Below, in pieces: positions 1-14,300 of a stretch of DNA of 45,194 nucleotides. The first letter of the stretch is position 1, and each line of letters opens with the position of its first letter. The DNA is from an uncultured Acholeplasmataceae bacterium (GTDB taxonomy: Bacteria; Bacillota_I; Bacilli_A; Acholeplasmatales; Acholeplasmataceae), in NCBI GenBank assembly GCA_927439925.1, contig CAKMKF010000011.1, positions 1 to 45,194 of the forward strand, given 5' to 3'. Below the pieces are notes generated by a model, which saw nothing but the letters and a program-made list of their open reading frames with translations, did no database searches and was not told the DNA's origin. The position numbers and the translations under genes are program-made.

Positions 1-1319
1 TGGTTTAATCTCGTTTGTGAGATTCGAATTTGTTCGGATAATTCTCTTTTATCTGCTTCAGTTCTTTCTTTTTCTGCGAAATATGCTTGTGTGTAGGATT
101 GAACCTCGGTATTTAAATTAGATAGATTTTCAGATAATTCAGTCGCTGTCAAGCTATCTTCATTGGATTGGAAATAAGAAACGAATGCCTTCATTGCTTG
201 ATTTGGAAGTAAATTGATTAATTCTTTTATCGTATTAAATTCCTTCACAAGCATTTCTTTGACTTGTGATAAGGCTTCCTTTTGTGTTTCGTATTCATGT
301 GCCTTCTTTTGAAGAGATTCTTGGTATTGAGATAATGTTCTTGATAAATCTGAATCATTTTTAGCGCGTTCTAGATTTAGAATTGCTGTATCAGTTTCTT
401 CAATTTGATCATCAATTTGACCTTTAGCATCTCTTAAATAATCGAGTTTTTTCTCGATTTGAGTCAGTTTAAGTTCATTTTCTTTTATAAATGATTCTCT
501 TTTTTCAACCCAGTTTAATTGATCAATTAATTGATTAATATCTTTTTGTTCTTTATTTAAAGTGATTTCCTCACCAAACTTAGTGATGGTATCTAGTTTT
601 TCAAGTTTTTCTTTATCTTTTTTAATTTGTGCTTCAACTTTTTTTAGTTGAGCAACGTTATTTTTCAAAGATTGAATATCGATAGGATCATCATCTAAAA
701 GGAATTCAAAAACGAATGCTTGAAGATCAATGGATCTAAAGGCAAGTGCTTTTGGAAGTATTTTTGCATATTTTGTAGCATCCATTCCAAAGAACCTAGC
801 TAACGCATCCCGATATTTCTTTTGAGACTCAAATGGTTGAAGGTCTACATCAATGCTCTTTAAATAGGCTTTCATGCTCTTAAAGTCTCTTGGATATTTC
901 TTTTCTAGAAATAAACCATCATGTATAGAGACATTATCTAGAAGATAAAATCTTTCTTTAAGTTGAGATAGTTTAGGTAAATCTAGAATAACACCGATGA
1001 CTGAATACTTTTTACTTTGTTCATCATAAAACTCTAAAGCCAAATGTGAAATGACATCGCCATTTCTTAAATATTCTTTATTTTCAGCACCAATTCTACC
1101 TCTTACATATCCCTCAAGGGTACGCTTCGCATCATCGGTTGCTGCAATATTGAATTTAGAACCGCTTCTACCACCTACGAATAGGTATTGCATCGCATCT
1201 AATAAAGTTGATTTACCTGATCCATTTTCACCTGAAATCAATGCATTATCTTTAATCTCAATCGTTTGGTTAGAAAACAAATGCCAGTTAACAAGTTTAA
1301 TCTTCGTCAGTTTCTTCAA
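1..1319 (-). CDS. jetC: JetC-like (MksB-type) SMC ATPase of a Wadjet system, N-terminal part only; truncated by window edge
   Basis: Open minus-strand frame with no stop from a TTG start at 1319 (GGAGGTG SD upstream) to the window edge, so absent from the ORF track. Begins LKKLTKIKLVNWHLFSNQTIEIKDNALISGENGSGKSTLLDAMQYLF: Walker A GENGSGKST, followed by long charged coiled-coil. Directly follows JetB- and JetA-like genes. Confidence 0.83.
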   Translation of the reverse strand, partial: MKKLTKIKLVNWHLFSNQTIEIKDNALISGENGSGKSTLLDAMQYLFVGGRSGSKFNIAATDDAKRTLEGYVRGRIGAENKEYLRNGDVISHLALEFYDEQSKKYSVIGVILDLPKLSQLKERFYLLDNVSIHDGLFLEKKYPRDFKSMKAYLKSIDVDLQPFESQKKYRDALARFFGMDATKYAKILPKALAFRSIDLQAFVFEFLLDDDPIDIQSLKNNVAQLKKVEAQIKKDKEKLEKLDTITKFGEEITLNKEQKDINQLIDQLNWVEKRESFIKENELKLTQIEKKLDYLRDAKGQIDDQIEETDTAILNLERAKNDSDLSRTLSQYQESLQKKAHEYETQKEALSQVKEMLVKEFNTIKELINLLPNQAMKAFVSYFQSNEDSLTATELSENLSNLNTEVQSYTQAYFAEKERTEADKRELSEQIRISQTRLN

Positions 1320-1935
1320 TGTCTTCACCTCCAGCTTCTACATATCCTTCAAGTTTTTGAACGATTTCTTTAATTGAATCTAAATTGGTGACGTATAAAA
1401 TGGTTGGATAGATCTTTATTCTTGCATCATCATGTAAACCTTTATCGATATAATCGATGATATTATAGTTTCTCAAAAACGTTAGTGCAGGTTTCAATTT
1501 GTCTTTTGTAATTCTTTTGTGATCTAAATAACCGATTCTAGTTAATTCTTCATGAATTTCATTTAAGAAGATTTCAACATTTTCATCTAGTGTAACGAAA
1601 TCTTTTTTGCGTTGATAAATAATTCTGATGACTAAAAGTAGAACACTTTCAGTCTTTCTCAAACGCATATGATTGAATAAATTATCATTTTGAATATAGA
1701 CGACTTCATCTTCTCTTTTAATATTTAATGTGAAATCTGATAATACAAAGAACGCTTCAAAGACTTCCTTAAAAGCTAGTATAAAGCGATAATCATTGGT
1801 ATCTCCAGGCTTTCTTTTGGTTAGAAAGTTTACTTGGAAAAGTTTATTAACGATTCTAGAAAAGGTAGACTTTTCGCCTTCCTTCATGACTATATATTCA
1901 TCACTAAATGCTTTAAGTGCTTGTGTCTTATTCAT
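1297..1935 (-). CDS. jetB: JetB-like (MksE / DUF4194-type) Wadjet subunit
   Basis: 212 aa ORF; size, composition and position between JetA-like and SMC-like genes fit DUF4194/JetB. ATGA overlap with jetA. Confidence 0.8.
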   Translation of the reverse strand: MNKTQALKAFSDEYIVMKEGEKSTFSRIVNKLFQVNFLTKRKPGDTNDYRFILAFKEVFEAFFVLSDFTLNIKREDEVVYIQNDNLFNHMRLRKTESVLLLVIRIIYQRKKDFVTLDENVEIFLNEIHEELTRIGYLDHKRITKDKLKPALTFLRNYNIIDYIDKGLHDDARIKIYPTILYVTNLDSIKEIVQKLEGYVEAGGEDIEETDED

Positions 1936-3314
1936 CGTCTCACCTCTTTGATTTTAAAGTTTTGGAAGGTAATGTCATTATTCTTACAATCTTTACCCAT
2001 TAGCTCGATATCGTAGTGCATACCAACTGACTTAGAATATAAGAAAATTAAAATGAGCTTTACAAAATCTTCTTGAGTCTCTAAATTGATGTTTGCTGCT
2101 TCTATTGATTTTTCTCCACCTAGTAAATCTCTAACGTGTTGATCAATATCTTTTTTGCCGTAAATATTATTTTTAAGTAATGCTTTAATTTTTTCTTTTC
2201 GATATTCATCAGAAATCATATCATCTTCAAAAAATATTTCTTCAGAGACTGGTTCTATTCTAGCTCTTCTTTGATTGTAGAGTGAATAGGTATCTAGGTT
2301 TCTCACTTGAGTGATATTAAACAATTTGGTGTAATCTTCAACTTTATTTGCCATAATGACTCTAAACAGACGATTGAATATGCCTTCGATATCATCAGAC
2401 TGATTTGTGAAAAACATGATTTTAGAAGCTGCAGCTGTAATATACTGTTCATTTTTTCTATCAATTGCTAGAATTAAATGCTCTAATGCTGTAAAGCTAT
2501 CTGTGATGTATCTAAGACGATCTTCGACATAATGAAAAGCTTCATTATAGTCTTCGATGCGTTTCACCTTCATCACCATTGCAGCAAGCTTCTCCATCGT
2601 TTCTTCAGTATTCTGAATTCTATTGATAGATTCTAAAATTGCTCTTTTATATCTCGGTAAACTATCTGTTGTTTTTAAGTTGTAATATGCTGAATCAAAG
2701 AAGTTTTGTTTATATTCAATTAGCAATTTCTCTAATAGATGTTTTAAATCATGTTTCGATTGCTTTTTAGTAATATCGTAGTAGTATCTATAAATATTTG
2801 CTTTCAAGGATTTTAGTTTTCTTAAGATATCATTTGTCTTCTGATAAGCTTGTTCTAAAACACCAATGCCTTCTTCAATAGCAAAAGAAGTCAAAAGAGA
2901 ATACACGGTGAATATTTCACCAGTATATTCGCTTTGACGATTTTCTTGTATACTCTCTAAAATATCTATAATTTGTATGGAATAATCAAATAGGTTTAAG
3001 GATGTTTTATAATCTCCGAGTTCTTCTTCTCCGAGCCACCCATTCTTTTTTAAAACATTAATGACATGAACTGCTTTTTGTCTTGAAGTTCTTGCAGGTT
3101 CATCATCTTCAATATCGAGGAAATCATCACCAGGTTCTTCATCGAAGTAATCAATGAGCCTTTGAACGATATATTCTCTATCCCCCTGAAAAGCATCTTC
3201 TATCGTATCAATAGCATGATAAATAATAAAAATACAATCGATATATGTCTTTTTGTTAGGGGAGGAAAGCACACTAAAAAAATTGCTGTGTATTGTTTCA
3301 AACAGATGTGCCAT
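1932..3314 (-). CDS. jetA: JetA-like (MksF/kleisin-type) Wadjet subunit
   Basis: ORF track 1932..3359; internal ATG at 3314 (MAHLFETIHSNFFSVLSSPNKKTYIDCIFIIY) is preceded by AAAGGAGGATCAG SD. N-terminus resembles the Wadjet JetA family. Confidence 0.8.
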   Translation of the reverse strand: MAHLFETIHSNFFSVLSSPNKKTYIDCIFIIYHAIDTIEDAFQGDREYIVQRLIDYFDEEPGDDFLDIEDDEPARTSRQKAVHVINVLKKNGWLGEEELGDYKTSLNLFDYSIQIIDILESIQENRQSEYTGEIFTVYSLLTSFAIEEGIGVLEQAYQKTNDILRKLKSLKANIYRYYYDITKKQSKHDLKHLLEKLLIEYKQNFFDSAYYNLKTTDSLPRYKRAILESINRIQNTEETMEKLAAMVMKVKRIEDYNEAFHYVEDRLRYITDSFTALEHLILAIDRKNEQYITAAASKIMFFTNQSDDIEGIFNRLFRVIMANKVEDYTKLFNITQVRNLDTYSLYNQRRARIEPVSEEIFFEDDMISDEYRKEKIKALLKNNIYGKKDIDQHVRDLLGGEKSIEAANINLETQEDFVKLILIFLYSKSVGMHYDIELMGKDCKNNDITFQNFKIKEVRR

Positions 3315-3402
3315 CTGATCCTCCTTTATTTTTATAAAATAAAAAAATATGAATATCATATTAATTGTAACATGAATTAGACATATTTTCTATTTTTTTC
3401 GA

Positions 3403-5157
3403 TTATTTGTCGCCTAAAATGGTAATCTTTATCTTCTTACCATTGAAGAGCTTGTTATTTACTTCATCTAAGCGCTTAATAGCTGCTGGATGAATTTGAA
3501 ATTCTGTTTCTTGTGGATAGATTGTGATATCTCCAATATTCTTTGGATAAAGGTCTGCATTTTTCTTTAAATAGTCAAGAAGTGCTACTGGTCTAATACC
3601 ATCTTGTTTACCTAAATTAATCATTGCATTCTTGTATGGACCTTCTGCTCCTCTTGATCTTGGTTCTGATGAATCATGAGATCTTTGAGGACGTGAATCC
3701 CTTGAATCTCTTGAACCTCTAGAATCTCTGGAATCACCTGATCTTGATGAATTAGAATCTCTAGGACCTCTTGATCTGGAATCATTTCTTCCTCCACGAT
3801 CTCTTGAACTTCTTGGATCAGAATACGAATCATTTCTCTTTTTAGCTGGTGCTTCAATTTGATCATAAGTCTTTTGTTCTACTGAGACTTGAGCTAGCAG
3901 TGCAGAAATAATATCATGGTCTTCGAATCCATCTTCATGAAGCTTTTCAATGACTGCATCGTAACTGACTTCGTTTTTGACAACCATGTCCATGATGTGA
4001 TCATAATTTCTTTGTTCTCTTCTTTGATTGATTTCTTCTTGTGTTGGAATTTCTTTTTCAATCAGTTTGGTTTTGATGTATCTTTCAATCATCGCAAGCT
4101 TACCTCTCATACTAGGATAAACTAGTGAGATAGAAATACCTGCTTTTCCAGCTCTTCCTGTACGACCGATTCTATGAACATAAAGCTCATCTTCGAAAGG
4201 AATTTCGTAGTTGATAATCATATCAACATGTGAGATATCAAGTCCTCTTGCTGCCACGTCAGTAGCAATTAAATACTTAAGTCTCTTGGATCTAAAACGA
4301 CCCATTACGTAGTCTCTTTGACTTTGTTTTAAATCACCATGAAGAGCATCTGCTTCATAATTGTGTTTTTGAAGGAATGCGGATAGATTATCAACATCGA
4401 CCTTTGTGTTCGCAAATATAATTGCAGAGATTGGTTCATAGAAATCTAATACTCTAAGTAAGAGTTGATCTCTATCAGACTTTCTGACATTATAGTAGAA
4501 TTGATCAATCTTGGAGACTGTAACAGTTGGTGTTTCAATTCTAATAATTTCAGGGTTTTTCTGGTATTTTTCAGCAACCTTCTTGATGAAAGGAGGTATC
4601 GTTGCTGAGAATAATGCGGTTTGTCTAGTGGATGGAGTATCTTTTAATAGTTTCTCTAAATCCTCTTGGAACCCCATTTTCAGCATTTCATCTGCTTCAT
4701 CCATAACAAGAATCTTTAAACTTGAAAAGTCTAGAGTTCCTCTTTCTAAATGGTCGATTGCGCGACCTGGTGTAGCAACCACAATTTGTGGGTGCTCGGC
4801 AAGTGCCTTGAATTGTTTGTTGTAAGATTCCCCACCATAAATTGATGTAATCTTAACAGCTCTGTTAAATTTAATTAGCTTTAGAAATTCCTTATATACT
4901 TGTAGCGTTAGTTCTCTTGTAGGACAAATGACTAATGCTTGAATTTTCTTATCTTCCGTGTCAATTTGTTCTAGGATGGGTATAGCGAAAGCGAATGTCT
5001 TTCCCGTACCTGTCTGTGCCTGGCCAATTAAATCCCTTTTCTCTAGCATTTTAGGGATTGCGTGGTGTTGTATCGACGTGGTTTCAACCAATCCTAATGC
5101 CTCAATTGCAGTTTTTGTTTCCTCTTTAATCTGTAAATCATTAAATAAAATATTCAT
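3403..5157 (-). CDS. cshA: DEAD-box ATP-dependent RNA helicase, CshA/DeaD-like, with RS/RG-rich linker and DbpA-like RNA-binding C-terminus
   Basis: AQTGTGKT, DEAD (VMDEADEML), SAT, HRIGRTGRAG motifs; ATG at 5157 with GAGGA SD preferred over upstream TTG at 5169. Confidence 0.93.
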   Translation of the reverse strand: MNILFNDLQIKEETKTAIEALGLVETTSIQHHAIPKMLEKRDLIGQAQTGTGKTFAFAIPILEQIDTEDKKIQALVICPTRELTLQVYKEFLKLIKFNRAVKITSIYGGESYNKQFKALAEHPQIVVATPGRAIDHLERGTLDFSSLKILVMDEADEMLKMGFQEDLEKLLKDTPSTRQTALFSATIPPFIKKVAEKYQKNPEIIRIETPTVTVSKIDQFYYNVRKSDRDQLLLRVLDFYEPISAIIFANTKVDVDNLSAFLQKHNYEADALHGDLKQSQRDYVMGRFRSKRLKYLIATDVAARGLDISHVDMIINYEIPFEDELYVHRIGRTGRAGKAGISISLVYPSMRGKLAMIERYIKTKLIEKEIPTQEEINQRREQRNYDHIMDMVVKNEVSYDAVIEKLHEDGFEDHDIISALLAQVSVEQKTYDQIEAPAKKRNDSYSDPRSSRDRGGRNDSRSRGPRDSNSSRSGDSRDSRGSRDSRDSRPQRSHDSSEPRSRGAEGPYKNAMINLGKQDGIRPVALLDYLKKNADLYPKNIGDITIYPQETEFQIHPAAIKRLDEVNNKLFNGKKIKITILGDK

Positions 5158-5237
5158 CTTTTTCCTCAATTCTTTTTAAACCTTATATACTATACCACAA
5201 AATATATAAAAACACTATGAAATTAAGAAAAAAAGAC

Positions 5238-5894
5238 TCATCTGGCCTTCTTTCTCTCGCAATTATCGTCTTCACAGTAATCTGTCTTACTATATGTGGC
5301 AGATGCCATATTTAAAGCTTCTATAATTTGTTCATCAGTATGATAGTTTTTAAGTCTATTCTTACCATCTATTCTAATATGTGGAACCTCAAATATACCC
5401 TTAAGTATTGCATTTTCTCTGTTTAAAGTTACTGACTCAAGATATCTTTCAGAGGATAATACATATTCAACTTCTTCTTTATTTAAACCGACTTTTAAGG
5501 ATATCTCCATTAGCACTTCATGATTGCTAATGTCTTTTTTGTACTCATAGTAGTATTTGAACACCATTTGATTGTACTCAAAAGCTTTTTCTGATTTTTT
5601 TGCTAGATGAGACAACCTGTGAGCATCAGTCACTTTTACTGGTTTTAAATCTTTTGGAATGTCAGTAAATACTTTTTTAGTTTCTTCAAAAGTTAATACA
5701 TGATGTTTAGATAAAATATCGTAAAAAGTACAATCCTCAAGTGGTTCAAACTTAGGAATCATTTCATAGCTTCTATATAAAAGCTCTAAATCATTAAATT
5801 GATATTTCTTGAATAAAAGTTCAATTGCTTGGTGTTGTTTGTGGCAAATTGGACTTAAATAATCAAACCAAAATTCTAGTTTCAACCCTATCAT
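5238..5894 (-). CDS. DsbA-family (FrnE-like) thioredoxin-fold protein
   Basis: FrnE-like pattern: LEFWFDYLSPICHKQH, DAHRLSHLAKK, GIFEVPHIRIDGKNRLKNY. Start may be TTG at 5885. Confidence 0.8.
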   Translation of the reverse strand: MIGLKLEFWFDYLSPICHKQHQAIELLFKKYQFNDLELLYRSYEMIPKFEPLEDCTFYDILSKHHVLTFEETKKVFTDIPKDLKPVKVTDAHRLSHLAKKSEKAFEYNQMVFKYYYEYKKDISNHEVLMEISLKVGLNKEEVEYVLSSERYLESVTLNRENAILKGIFEVPHIRIDGKNRLKNYHTDEQIIEALNMASATYSKTDYCEDDNCERKKAR

Positions 5895-7518: not shown

Positions 7519-8271
7519 TTAGTTAAGGACTTTTTGAATATCTTCAAGCTGATATCCCTTTTGATAAAGCTTTTCTTTGATGCTGGATTTCAGTTCATAT
7601 CCACTTAGTTTTTTGGATAATCTTAGATAGAGTTTATCATAATCCTTTTGGATAAGTTTGAGTTCATCACCTTGATATTGATCTGCAGTTTTCTCTAAGA
7701 TGCTAGATACAACTTGGTTTGAATAACCATTTCTAATGAAATGTGTTTTTACATTGAGTAAAGCTTGTCGCTTTGGTTTATTTTTGATAGATGTTAGTTT
7801 TTTAGGGATTTGATGTGATAAGATTTCATGCTCATCAATTTTATCGATTTCTTCATGAATCAAATCAAAATCAATTCCTTTATCTCTTAACTGATGTTCT
7901 AGAACCAAAGGACCATATTGATACTTCTTCATTTGAATATAATCTTTTGTATAAAGAAGATCATCTAGATATCTTTTTTCATCGTATTTTGAAATGACTT
8001 GTTTAACTACACCTTCACTAGCTCCAAGAGAGATCAAATAGTTTTTCATTTCATATCTAGTAAGCATTTTTTTAAGCTTGATGATCCCTAATTTATAGTA
8101 TTTTAAATAATCATTTTCTGTAATTAATTCTTTCCATACTTTTTCTTCTAATTCAAGTCCTTCACGCAAATGAAATTTCAAATACATCTCAGGCTCTATA
8201 TCATAGGTTTCATTTTTAACTGTGAGTTGAACTATTTTCTTTAATTTTTTGACTGCATCTATTTTTTTCAT
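7519..8271 (-). CDS. recX: RecX-like regulatory protein
   Basis: Repeated three-helix RecX pattern (YEMKNYLISLGASEGVVKQVISKYDEKRYLDDLLYTKDYI... LEHQLRDKGID). Confidence 0.82.
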   Translation of the reverse strand: MKKIDAVKKLKKIVQLTVKNETYDIEPEMYLKFHLREGLELEEKVWKELITENDYLKYYKLGIIKLKKMLTRYEMKNYLISLGASEGVVKQVISKYDEKRYLDDLLYTKDYIQMKKYQYGPLVLEHQLRDKGIDFDLIHEEIDKIDEHEILSHQIPKKLTSIKNKPKRQALLNVKTHFIRNGYSNQVVSSILEKTADQYQGDELKLIQKDYDKLYLRLSKKLSGYELKSSIKEKLYQKGYQLEDIQKVLN

Positions 8272-9772: not shown

Positions 9773-10626
9773 TTTGCGTCCTCCCTTGAAAATCCTTGTC
9801 CAAGAGCTTCTTTAGTCTTGGTAACGAATGTGAATGCCGTAGGATCTGTTTCTTTAATAATCATTTTGAATGGATATAATTCTCTTCTATCTACTGTACA
9901 TATGATTAATTCTTTATCTTGTTTGGAGTAACCACCGACAACTTTAACTTTGGTTAGTCCACGATCAATTTTTTCATAAATTCGTTTTTGTAATAGATCA
10001 CTATTTGTACTCACAATGAAGACTGTGTATCCAGCTTTACCTTCTATGGCTAATCGATCAACGATGATACCAATAATAATCATCGATCCTACTGCATATA
10101 ATCCCAATTGAAAATTAATGAGCATCGCTACAAAGATGACTGCACCATCCGTAAAATACATAGCTGTAGAAAATGGGATGTTTAAAAACTTATTTAAGAT
10201 GCGTTGAACAACATCAATTCCACCTGTAGTTCCATTATTTCTAACAACTATACCAAGACCTGCACCAATGAAAATTCCACCAAAAGTCGCTCCTATTAAT
10301 AGTGGACTTTCGGTCATATGTCTCATAAAGTAGTTGGAATCTATTGTTTTTTCTAATATAAAGATAATGGTTGGTGACAGTAGAGTTGCGTAGACTGTTT
10401 TATAGAAAAACACTTTACCTAAAAACAAACCACCAATAATGAGTAAAATAATATTTGCAACATACATAAATAGACTGACTGGAATTTGATCTTGAAGTAA
10501 GACTGAAACCCCCATTACACCACCGATTACAAGACCTAAAGGTAATAAGAAAAAATAGAAACCTAAGGATAGTAAGACTACTCCTATTGTGATTTCTAAA
10601 ATTTCACGACGTTTTGCATTATTCAT
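9766..10626 (-). CDS. YitT family membrane protein
   Basis: Multi-TM, GGTTGGIDVVQRILNK and C-terminal DUF2179-like domain. ORF track start 10635 is GTG; ATG at 10626 with AGGTG SD is more likely. Confidence 0.88.
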   Translation of the reverse strand: MNNAKRREILEITIGVVLLSLGFYFFLLPLGLVIGGVMGVSVLLQDQIPVSLFMYVANIILLIIGGLFLGKVFFYKTVYATLLSPTIIFILEKTIDSNYFMRHMTESPLLIGATFGGIFIGAGLGIVVRNNGTTGGIDVVQRILNKFLNIPFSTAMYFTDGAVIFVAMLINFQLGLYAVGSMIIIGIIVDRLAIEGKAGYTVFIVSTNSDLLQKRIYEKIDRGLTKVKVVGGYSKQDKELIICTVDRRELYPFKMIIKETDPTAFTFVTKTKEALGQGFSREDAKW

Positions 10627-11719
10627 TGTTGTCACCTGCTTTTAAGTAAGCATTGATAAATCCATCGATTTCTCCGTCCATAACTAAATCAACTTGAGAA
10701 ACTTCGTAATTGGTTCGATGATCTTTAACCATTTGATAAGGATGGAAGACGTAGGATCTAATTTGTGAACCCCATCCTATTTCTTTTTGTTCGCCTTTAA
10801 TCGCTTTAATATTTTCCTCTTGTTTCTTGATTTCTTCTAGCACAAGCTTTGATTTTAAAACAGTCATCGCAGATTCTTTATTTTTTAATTGGCTACGTTC
10901 ATTTTGACATGTGACAACGATATTGGTAGGTAGATGTGTAATTCTTACTGCAGAGTCTGTCGTATTGACAGATTGTCCACCAGCACCACCACTTCGATAT
11001 ACATCGATTTTAATATCTTCATCTTTAATCTCAATTTCGATATCATCATTGATTTCTGGAATGACATCTAGTGAAGCGAATGATGTATGTCTTCTTGCAT
11101 TGGAATCAAAAGGAGATATTCTAACTAAGCGATGTACTCCACGTTCTGCTTTTAAATATCCATAAGCATATGGTCCTTTTATTAGTACAGTAACGCTTTT
11201 AATTCCCGCTTCTTCACCTGATTGATAATCTAGAACTTCAATTTTAAACTTTCTACGTTGTGCATATCTAGTATACATTCGATATAGCATATCTGCCCAG
11301 TCTTGCGACTCAGTTCCGCCAGCACCAGGATGAAGTTCAATTATTGCGTTACTGTTGTCATATGGTCCGTTGAGTAATGTTTCAATTTCGAATGCTTTCA
11401 AATCTTTTTGAAGAGTTTCGATGTCATTTTCTAAAATTGTCCATTCTTCAGTTCCTTCTTCACTAATTGAAAACCATTCGACAAGATTTTTATATTTTTT
11501 TTCTAAAGCAAAGAAATCGTCAAGTTTTTGACGAATTTCGGTTGCTTCTTTTGAAGTTTTTTTAGCTGAATTTTGATTACTCCAAAAATTTGGTTCTTGC
11601 ATAAGAAGATTTAATTTCTTATAGTCGCTCTCAAGTTTTTCTGGATTAATTGCTTTGTTTAAATCATTGATGCTTTCTTCAAATAAAGATAATATTTTAT
11701 TGACTTCATATGTTTCCAA
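10619..11719 (-). CDS. prfB: Peptide chain release factor 2
   Basis: SPF codon-recognition tripeptide (RISPFDSNARRHTSF) and GGQ (GAGGQSVNTTDSAVRITH). TTG start with GGGGGT SD. Confidence 0.97.
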   Translation of the reverse strand: METYEVNKILSLFEESINDLNKAINPEKLESDYKKLNLLMQEPNFWSNQNSAKKTSKEATEIRQKLDDFFALEKKYKNLVEWFSISEEGTEEWTILENDIETLQKDLKAFEIETLLNGPYDNSNAIIELHPGAGGTESQDWADMLYRMYTRYAQRRKFKIEVLDYQSGEEAGIKSVTVLIKGPYAYGYLKAERGVHRLVRISPFDSNARRHTSFASLDVIPEINDDIEIEIKDEDIKIDVYRSGGAGGQSVNTTDSAVRITHLPTNIVVTCQNERSQLKNKESAMTVLKSKLVLEEIKKQEENIKAIKGEQKEIGWGSQIRSYVFHPYQMVKDHRTNYEVSQVDLVMDGEIDGFINAYLKAGDNNE

Positions 11720-11732
11720 GAAAAGTACCCCC

Positions 11733-14201
11733 TTAACGCCAAGGCTGATTTCTTCTATCTCTGTTTTTTCTTACTTTTGGCTTTTTAGGTTTAGCGTCTG
11801 TTCGACCTTCATTGGTTTGTGTATTTTTAACAACTGCTTCACGCTCAACATTATATTGAATTTGAGCACGAATTGCGTATCTTGCAATGTCATTAGAAAT
11901 ATTTTTAACCATTTCATTAAACATTTCAAGACCCTGTTTTTGATAAATAACTAAAGGACTTTGCTGAGCATATGCCTGTAGAGATACACCTTGTCTAAGT
12001 TCACTCATTGTGTCAATATGACGCATCCAGTAGGTATCAATGACTCTTAACATAACTACTTTTAAGAACTCGTTATAAACTTCTGGTGGAACTTGACTCT
12101 TTTTACGATCAAGCTCTAATTCTGCAATTTCTAGAATATGATCTTTTAATTCATTTTCATCCATTTTTTCGATTTCTTCTTTGATTAAAGTGTTTGGCAT
12201 GAAAATATTTCCGTTAAAGGTTGCGATGATGTTGTCATCATCTATCTTGAATTGGTTTTTTCCAACTGGATGGATAAACTGTTGTAACGTATTTGATAAA
12301 CTATTTCTAACTGTATTTCTAACTTGATCTTCAATGGATGGAAGTGTTAAAACATCACGACGTTCTTTATAAATAATTTCTCTTTGTTTACGTAGTACAT
12401 CATCATATTTTAAGACATTCTTACGTGAATCGTAGTTATTTCCTTCGATTCTTTTTTGTGCACTTGTCACAAATCTAGAAAATAGTTTAGATGAAAGTGG
12501 TTGTCCAGTTGTATTTAATCTTTCCAACATTTCAATTCTTCTTTTAAAGGTTTCACCACCGAAACGCATCATCAATTCATCTTCAGCTGAAAGGTAAAAT
12601 CTTGAGTAACCTGGGTCACCTTGACGACCAGCACGACCACGTAACTGATTGTCAATACGTCTTGATTCATGACGTTCACTACCGATAACCGCTAAACCGC
12701 CTAATGCAACAACACCTGGCCCAAGTTTAATATCCGTACCACGACCAGCCATATTGGTAGCAATCGTAACAGATCCTAAGAAACCTGCTTTAGCAACAAT
12801 TTCAGCTTCTCTTTCATGATTCTTCGCATTTAAGACTTCGTGAGGAATTCTTCTTGCCTTCAGCATTCTTGATAAATCTTCTGAAGTTTCAACAGCTATT
12901 GTACCAATTAGCATTGGTTGTCCAATTTGATGTCTTGCTTCTACTTCATCAACAAGAGCTTTAAATTTTTCCTCTAGGTTTGCGTATATGTAATCTGGTT
13001 CATCTTTTCTAATGACTGGAGCATTGGTAGGAACTTCAACAACATCCATGTTATAAATGTCTCTAAATTCTTCTTCCTCAGTCTTCGCAGTACCTGTCAT
13101 ACCAGAAAGTTTTTTATACATTCTAAAAAAGTTCTGATAAGTAATGGTTGCTACAGTCACGGTTTCCTTCTTAACTTGAACGCCTTCTTTGGCTTCCAAA
13201 GCTTGATGCAGACCCTCAGAGAACTGACGTCCTCTTAAGATACGACCGGTAAACTGGTCAACAATTAATACTTCATCGTTATCAACGACATACTCTTTAT
13301 CTCTAGCCATAATATGATTTGCACGTAGTGCGTTATTGATATGATGAACTAAAGTAACATGTTTTAAATCATATAAGTTTTCTAATTGGAAAATTTGTTC
13401 TGCTTTTTTAATTCCCGATGGAGTTAATGCGATACTCTTGGATTCCAAATCAATTTCAAAATCTTCATCGCGAAGTGATTTAGAGAATCGATCTGCAGCT
13501 TGATATAAGTTATGATTATTTTTAGAACCACCAGAAATAATTAATGGCGTTCTAGCTTCGTCAATTAAAATGGAGTCTACTTCATCGATTATTGCATAAT
13601 TAAGTCCACGTTGAGCAACCATATCTTTAGCATATAAAACCATGTGATCTCTTAAATAGTCAAACCCTAATTCAGAGTTCGTTGAGTATAAGATATCGCA
13701 GTCATAAGCGTCTTTTTTTTGTTCTCTTGTTAAATCTCTTAAGTTTAGACCAACAGTTAAGCCTAAAAAGCGGAATAAATCTCCGATTTCACCTTCTGCT
13801 TCACGTTTAGCCAAATATTCATTGACGGTAACAATATGAACACCTTCACCATTTAATGCACTTAAATATGCTGGCATAACTGCTGTTAACGTTTTACCTT
13901 CACCAGTTCTCATTTCAGCGATATTACCATGAAATATAGCAACAGCACCTAATACCTGTACATAATAAGGAAATAATTTGGTAACACGTCTAGATGCTTC
14001 TCTAACGACAGCAAAAGCTTCTGGCATAATACTTTCTAATGATTCACCCTTTTGATATCTATCTTTAAAGAGAGTTGTCTTTTGAGTAAGTTCATCATCT
14101 GTTAACTTTTCTGTTTCTGCTTCAAGAGAAAAAACGACATCTGCAATTTTTTTGGCATCTTTAATTTCTCTTTTACCTGGGTCAAACCATTTTTTTAACA
14201 T
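11733..14201 (-). CDS. secA: Preprotein translocase ATPase SecA
   Basis: AEMRTGEGKTL, DEVDSILIDEARTPLIISG, TNMAGRGTDIKLG, QLRGRAGRQGDPG. Confidence 0.99.
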   Translation of the reverse strand: MLKKWFDPGKREIKDAKKIADVVFSLEAETEKLTDDELTQKTTLFKDRYQKGESLESIMPEAFAVVREASRRVTKLFPYYVQVLGAVAIFHGNIAEMRTGEGKTLTAVMPAYLSALNGEGVHIVTVNEYLAKREAEGEIGDLFRFLGLTVGLNLRDLTREQKKDAYDCDILYSTNSELGFDYLRDHMVLYAKDMVAQRGLNYAIIDEVDSILIDEARTPLIISGGSKNNHNLYQAADRFSKSLRDEDFEIDLESKSIALTPSGIKKAEQIFQLENLYDLKHVTLVHHINNALRANHIMARDKEYVVDNDEVLIVDQFTGRILRGRQFSEGLHQALEAKEGVQVKKETVTVATITYQNFFRMYKKLSGMTGTAKTEEEEFRDIYNMDVVEVPTNAPVIRKDEPDYIYANLEEKFKALVDEVEARHQIGQPMLIGTIAVETSEDLSRMLKARRIPHEVLNAKNHEREAEIVAKAGFLGSVTIATNMAGRGTDIKLGPGVVALGGLAVIGSERHESRRIDNQLRGRAGRQGDPGYSRFYLSAEDELMMRFGGETFKRRIEMLERLNTTGQPLSSKLFSRFVTSAQKRIEGNNYDSRKNVLKYDDVLRKQREIIYKERRDVLTLPSIEDQVRNTVRNSLSNTLQQFIHPVGKNQFKIDDDNIIATFNGNIFMPNTLIKEEIEKMDENELKDHILEIAELELDRKKSQVPPEVYNEFLKVVMLRVIDTYWMRHIDTMSELRQGVSLQAYAQQSPLVIYQKQGLEMFNEMVKNISNDIARYAIRAQIQYNVEREAVVKNTQTNEGRTDAKPKKPKVRKNRDRRNQPWR

Positions 14202-14300
14202 AGATACACATCCTTTACGTTCTTTATTATATTACTATAATACAGGTGTTTTTACAAGCGATTTCACTGTTTATGGGATTTTAACATAATTTGATAAATC

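Follow-up and report, generated by a model that had tools for sequence, protein, structure and literature searches.

Does the operon at the left end of this DNA belong to an anti-plasmid defence system, or does it encode the machine that organises the host's own chromosome? The stretch analysed here (the window, 45,194 nucleotides in full length) begins with genes of the Wadjet type. The known Wadjet type I system (JetABCD/MksBEFG) uses such subunits together with a nuclease, JetD.

The jetABC locus

The following genes were found at the locus:
3..1328, minus strand: jetC, N-terminal 442 aa of an SMC ATPase, cut at the contig end (PADLOC JetC, 5.5e-112)
1297..1935, minus strand: jetB, 212 aa, KITE subunit with DUF4194 (PF13835, 7e-24; PADLOC JetB, 8e-63)
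1932..3314, minus strand: jetA, 460 aa, kleisin subunit (PF18982, 2e-85; PADLOC JetA, 5e-99)

All three genes were strong matches to Wadjet type I in both Pfam and PADLOC, and they lie in one operon. The sequence-only reading had recognised three overlapping minus-strand genes of the JetA (460 aa), JetB (212 aa) and JetC type, and the profile searches it had suggested for JetA, JetB (DUF4194) and JetC returned all three as type I. The upper limit of the extent it gave (1-3359) is not a gene start: jetA begins with the ATG at 3314, and 3359 belongs to an in-frame extension upstream of that codon. The jetA TGA stop is overlapped by the jetB ATG. jetB is in turn overlapped by jetC, which starts at about 1328 and whose frame is still open where it runs off position 3. 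As jetA ends in TGA and overruns under table 4, the host uses the standard genetic code. Its nearest named relatives are Acholeplasmataceae, in agreement with the Mollicute host that had been suspected.

Window position 1 is the first base of the contig (G000:C11), and the interruption of jetC at the window end, correctly noted before, is a break in the assembly. The remainder of jetC was absent elsewhere in the assembly (1.94 Mb, 211 contigs, 80.6% complete). The window part carries the Walker A motif GENGSGKST and the start of the coiled coil, and PADLOC matched it to profile positions 1-441 of 1097. The nearest relative has an intact JetC of 1097 aa (P0001), 98% identical to the window protein over 2-445. 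In close relatives, Walker A, the SKEKSGGETQ signature and VLFDEAFNNMD are intact. The ATPase (Walker A, signature and Walker B) is hence read from the window for Walker A and from relatives for the rest, the C-terminal half of the window gene being unassembled.

The JetC profile matched the solved E. coli JetC (8as8, 4e-35) over positions 4-1082, i.e. nearly end to end. A direct phmmer search of the PDB gave no match; profile and fold searches did. The structure model of JetA was modest (pLDDT 71, pTM 0.40). Its best PDB matches were Wadjet II JetA, MukF and E. coli Wadjet JetA, with low TM-scores that probably come from flexible domain placement. Judged by this model, JetA looks like a kleisin of the MukF/JetA type.

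Gene neighbourhood and constraint

The conserved neighbours of the operon in the window are:
3403..5169, minus strand: DEAD-box RNA helicase, the gene usually found next to jetA on the upstream side, outside the complex (synteny; generic helicase matches)
5238..5894, minus strand: DsbA-like protein (synteny; named from reading of the sequence)
7519..8271, minus strand: RecX-like protein (synteny; named from reading of the sequence)
10619..11770, minus strand: prfB (TIGR00020; synteny)
11733..14231, minus strand: secA, used as a yardstick of vertical inheritance (TIGR00963; synteny)

Synteny was compared over 29 named loci that share this jetA. Across Acholeplasmataceae the neighbourhood was fixed as secA-prfB-...-DEADbox-jetA-jetB-jetC-peptidase. 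The upstream side was stable in relatives and ran as in the window (secA, prfB, YitT, S41 peptidase, RecX, amidohydrolase, DsbA-like, DEAD-box); in more distant members, single genes were moved or missing. Other genes of the window are housekeeping genes as well (metK, fmt, priA, infB, nusA, coaD, uvrC, gmk). Five other window genes searched against PADLOC gave generic helicase matches only.

The dN/dS values of jetA, jetB and jetC between the window and two relatives (L001, L002) were 0.014-0.027. For comparison, secA reached 0.027 and prfB 0.032, and the neighbouring recX was higher than jetABC. Moreover, JetABC distances tracked those of SecA and PrfB across 17 genomes (Mantel r 0.95, 0 of 2000 permutations). 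The operon is thus vertically inherited and under strong constraint, like core genes.

Search for JetD

A jetD gene had been predicted just beyond position 1. This prediction found no support. The JetD families PF09983 and PF11795 (DUF3322/DUF2220), named beforehand for a profile check, had no match in the host genome (80.6% complete). The window's own DNA beyond jetC is unassembled, and the downstream side was judged from the operons of relatives. Wherever enough downstream DNA was available, the gene after jetC encoded a C1-type peptidase, except in Haploplasma modicum, where unrelated genes came next. jetD never followed jetC in these same-operon relatives, including the complete copy of a 98%-identical relative, and no conserved fourth gene was found beside jetABC across lineages. 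The locus hence combines an SMC protein, a kleisin and a KITE subunit with no JetD/MksG. Because JetD is absent, Wadjet-style plasmid cleavage would be impossible for JetABC here.

The complete anti-plasmid system that had been assumed is not borne out by the order either: JetD was confined to 8 of 101 genomes, and none of the JetD loci inspected coincides with the conserved jetABC locus. A further 40 regions comprised 13 full jetABCD loci, 25 jetABC loci with no jetD, one partial locus and one JetD-only locus. The complete genome G060 has an orphan JetABC and a separate JetABCD at different places; MO-XQ (CP017948) has an identical orphan locus.

A cryptic JetD variant behind the orphan jetC of other families was considered and rejected, as reading of the sequences gave GlgC/GlgD-like proteins, a sugar ABC ATPase, a dehydrogenase or Leu-tRNA synthetase instead. 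The IFDR motif at the JetB N-terminus, which contacts JetD (PMC10586767), could not be aligned in these sequences. Seven columns were conserved in JetD-linked complexes and lost in orphan ones, which ranked 8 of 35 equivalent splits and gave no signal.

Distribution of SMC complexes

In the order (101 genomes), JetA was found in 78 genomes and JetC in 80. Canonical SMC, ScpA and ScpB were each over the curated cut-off in 0 of 101; in the SMC search, scoring was limited to a few top candidates from each genome. The host genome itself gave weak SMC matches only, far below the cut-off. The families that define Smc-ScpAB (SMC_prok_B, ScpA, ScpB) were thus not recognised, and a nuclease-less complex of the Wadjet group takes their place in the genome. 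Control genomes were positive for SMC, ScpA and ScpB, and the JetD control was positive in Corynebacterium glutamicum. The sample is partly made up of draft MAGs, and 67 of the 101 genomes are ≥90% complete and ≤5% contaminated; several are single contigs.

Setting aside the strongly reduced genera g7 and g9, which are probably phytoplasma-like judging by their size, JetC was present in 50 of the 51 genomes of the same family. Several genomes, namely G025, G038, G047 and G053 (g7), g9 and the family f5 (G064, G067, G072, G074), had no JetA/JetC, SMC, ScpA or ScpB over cut-off.

The class sample (298 genomes) contained JetA in 83 genomes, JetD in 22 and SMC or ScpA in 137. The majority of JetA-positive genomes (71 of 83) had no SMC/ScpA, and JetD was absent in 67 of these 71. 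The other 12 kept SMC/ScpA, and 10 of them had a JetD match (Fisher p 2e-8). Neither JetA nor SMC/ScpA was found in 90 of the 298 genomes; therefore, a condensin may be dispensable.

Those genomes of the families f8, f18 and f25 that have an in-frame TGA in the SMC or ScpA gene (Mycoplasma-type code) keep Smc-ScpAB. From these gene contents, the condensins of the two wall-less lineages appear to differ.

Two genomes of f12, G107 (L092) and G149 (L093), carry an orphan JetABC alongside Smc-ScpAB, a combination also reported for Pseudomonas aeruginosa with its MksBEF. In G107, JetD lies on a contig other than that of jetABC, and its jetABC is therefore an orphan by adjacency. As orphan JetABC and Smc-ScpAB occur together in such genomes, an orphan locus is not in itself proof of a takeover. 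One very divergent JetABC (L094, G207) has no adjacent JetD, and Smc-ScpAB is present; its tree position is unsure (long branch).

Phylogeny of JetABC

A concatenated JetABC tree was calculated (quick LG+G4, midpoint root for drawing only, five long-branched rows left out). The orphans of Acholeplasmataceae grouped in a single clade with full support, which is nested within the JetD-linked loci (96*/92). Those of other families (f3/f23/f24, f11/f21 and f7) were placed elsewhere, and f7 grouped with JetD-linked loci of f12 (98*). A single clade of all nuclease-less JetABC was rejected by the AU test (p 6e-5), as was a grouping of f1 with f3. A separate, long-branched nuclease-less clade was seen in f21 and f11 (L099-L101, L090, L091, L106, L107), also with no SMC or ScpA.

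Two or more independent losses of JetD are supported by this tree, and their exact number is provisional. The conversion to a nuclease-less complex probably happened more than once, because the orphan clade nests among nuclease-bearing Wadjets and one origin is rejected by the AU test.

Proposed function of the nuclease-less complex

Taken together, the gene content, vertical descent and nesting point to a nuclease-less Wadjet I complex that has replaced Smc-ScpAB as the housekeeping condensin and is the sole recognised SMC complex of the cell. We put the probability of this at roughly 0.8. As far as the sequences go, the picture is the one that the sequence-only reading had itself named as speaking against a defence system, i.e. 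no JetD-like gene and a housekeeping use of the Mks/Muk kind.

The complex shares with Wadjet type I the JetA, JetB and JetC families, the order jetA-jetB-jetC and the overlapping genes. It differs in the missing JetD, the fixed core-gene location, the vertical inheritance and its position as the sole recognised SMC complex. A parallel in function would be E. coli MukBEF, likewise a Wadjet-group SMC complex lacking MksG/JetD, and a housekeeping condensin; several other members of the group also lack JetD (PMC7617805). MukBEF is nevertheless a separate lineage: JetC here has 1097 aa, whereas MukB is longer (NCBIfam model of 1486 positions), and the subunits are typical of Wadjet I. MksBEF of P. 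aeruginosa coexists with Smc-ScpAB (PMC7485682), which is absent here. With Smc-ScpAB the complex has the SMC-kleisin-KITE architecture in common, and the same role is predicted for JetABC; unlike JetABC, Smc-ScpAB was over cut-off in none of the 101 genomes of the order. In JCVI-Syn3A, which derives from a mycoplasma, Smc complexes are described as the main machinery of partitioning (PMC13142093).

By analogy with MukBEF and Wadjet, dimers of JetC, with JetA and JetB as the bridge, would load on the chromosome and use ATP to extrude loops. The loops would organise sister chromosomes and help to separate them, as MukBEF does. The ancestor would have been a plasmid-restricting JetABCD, which lost JetD and took over the role of Smc-ScpAB; the loss of JetD may have preceded or followed that of Smc-ScpAB.

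The alternative that survives best is defence or plasmid control independent of JetD, in which small circular DNA is silenced or mis-segregated by extrusion alone or an unrelated nuclease is recruited. In Wadjet, it is JetABC that senses circular DNA (PMC10586767), and in G107 and G149 an orphan JetABC stands beside an Smc-ScpAB that already covers the chromosome work; it is in genomes of this kind that plasmid control by means other than cleavage is most plausible. For the operon of the window we consider it unlikely, given that no conserved fourth gene was found across lineages, that the chromosomal job would be vacant with Smc-ScpAB gone, and that constraint and descent are core-gene-like.

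A complete Wadjet anti-plasmid system would place jetD just past the contig end or in trans. The subunits are genuinely those of Wadjet I, the locus is cut by the end of a contig in an 80.6% complete assembly, and true JetABCD loci do occur in the order. Nevertheless, the lack of JetD in the host genome, the C1 peptidase or unrelated gene after jetC in all same-operon relatives with enough downstream sequence, and a core synteny and near-universal presence at odds with the patchy spread of defence genes make this reading very improbable. A decaying Wadjet remnant with no current function would fit the loss of JetD but is hardly credible with a dN/dS of about 0.02 over all three genes, ATPase motifs intact in relatives and retention in reduced genomes.

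Returning to the condensin reading, it is somewhat favoured, at little better than even odds, that Wadjets were converted in several independent events among the lineages around wall-less bacteria, each becoming the sole condensin through JetD loss as Smc-ScpAB vanished. The literature searched for Acholeplasma with Wadjet, condensin or MukB (subscription papers being outside its scope) reports no order-wide replacement in wall-less bacteria.

Defence-finding tools may count core condensins of this kind as Wadjet. The proposal made for MukBEF, a condensin descended from a defence system, can now be tested on extant relatives: related complexes that have or lack the nuclease occur within one family, and both forms are present in the complete genome MO-XQ. 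The order provides wall-less bacteria with a Wadjet-type complex as the only recognised SMC complex. If repeated conversion is true, the chromosomes of the two wall-less orders would be handled by different SMC machines.
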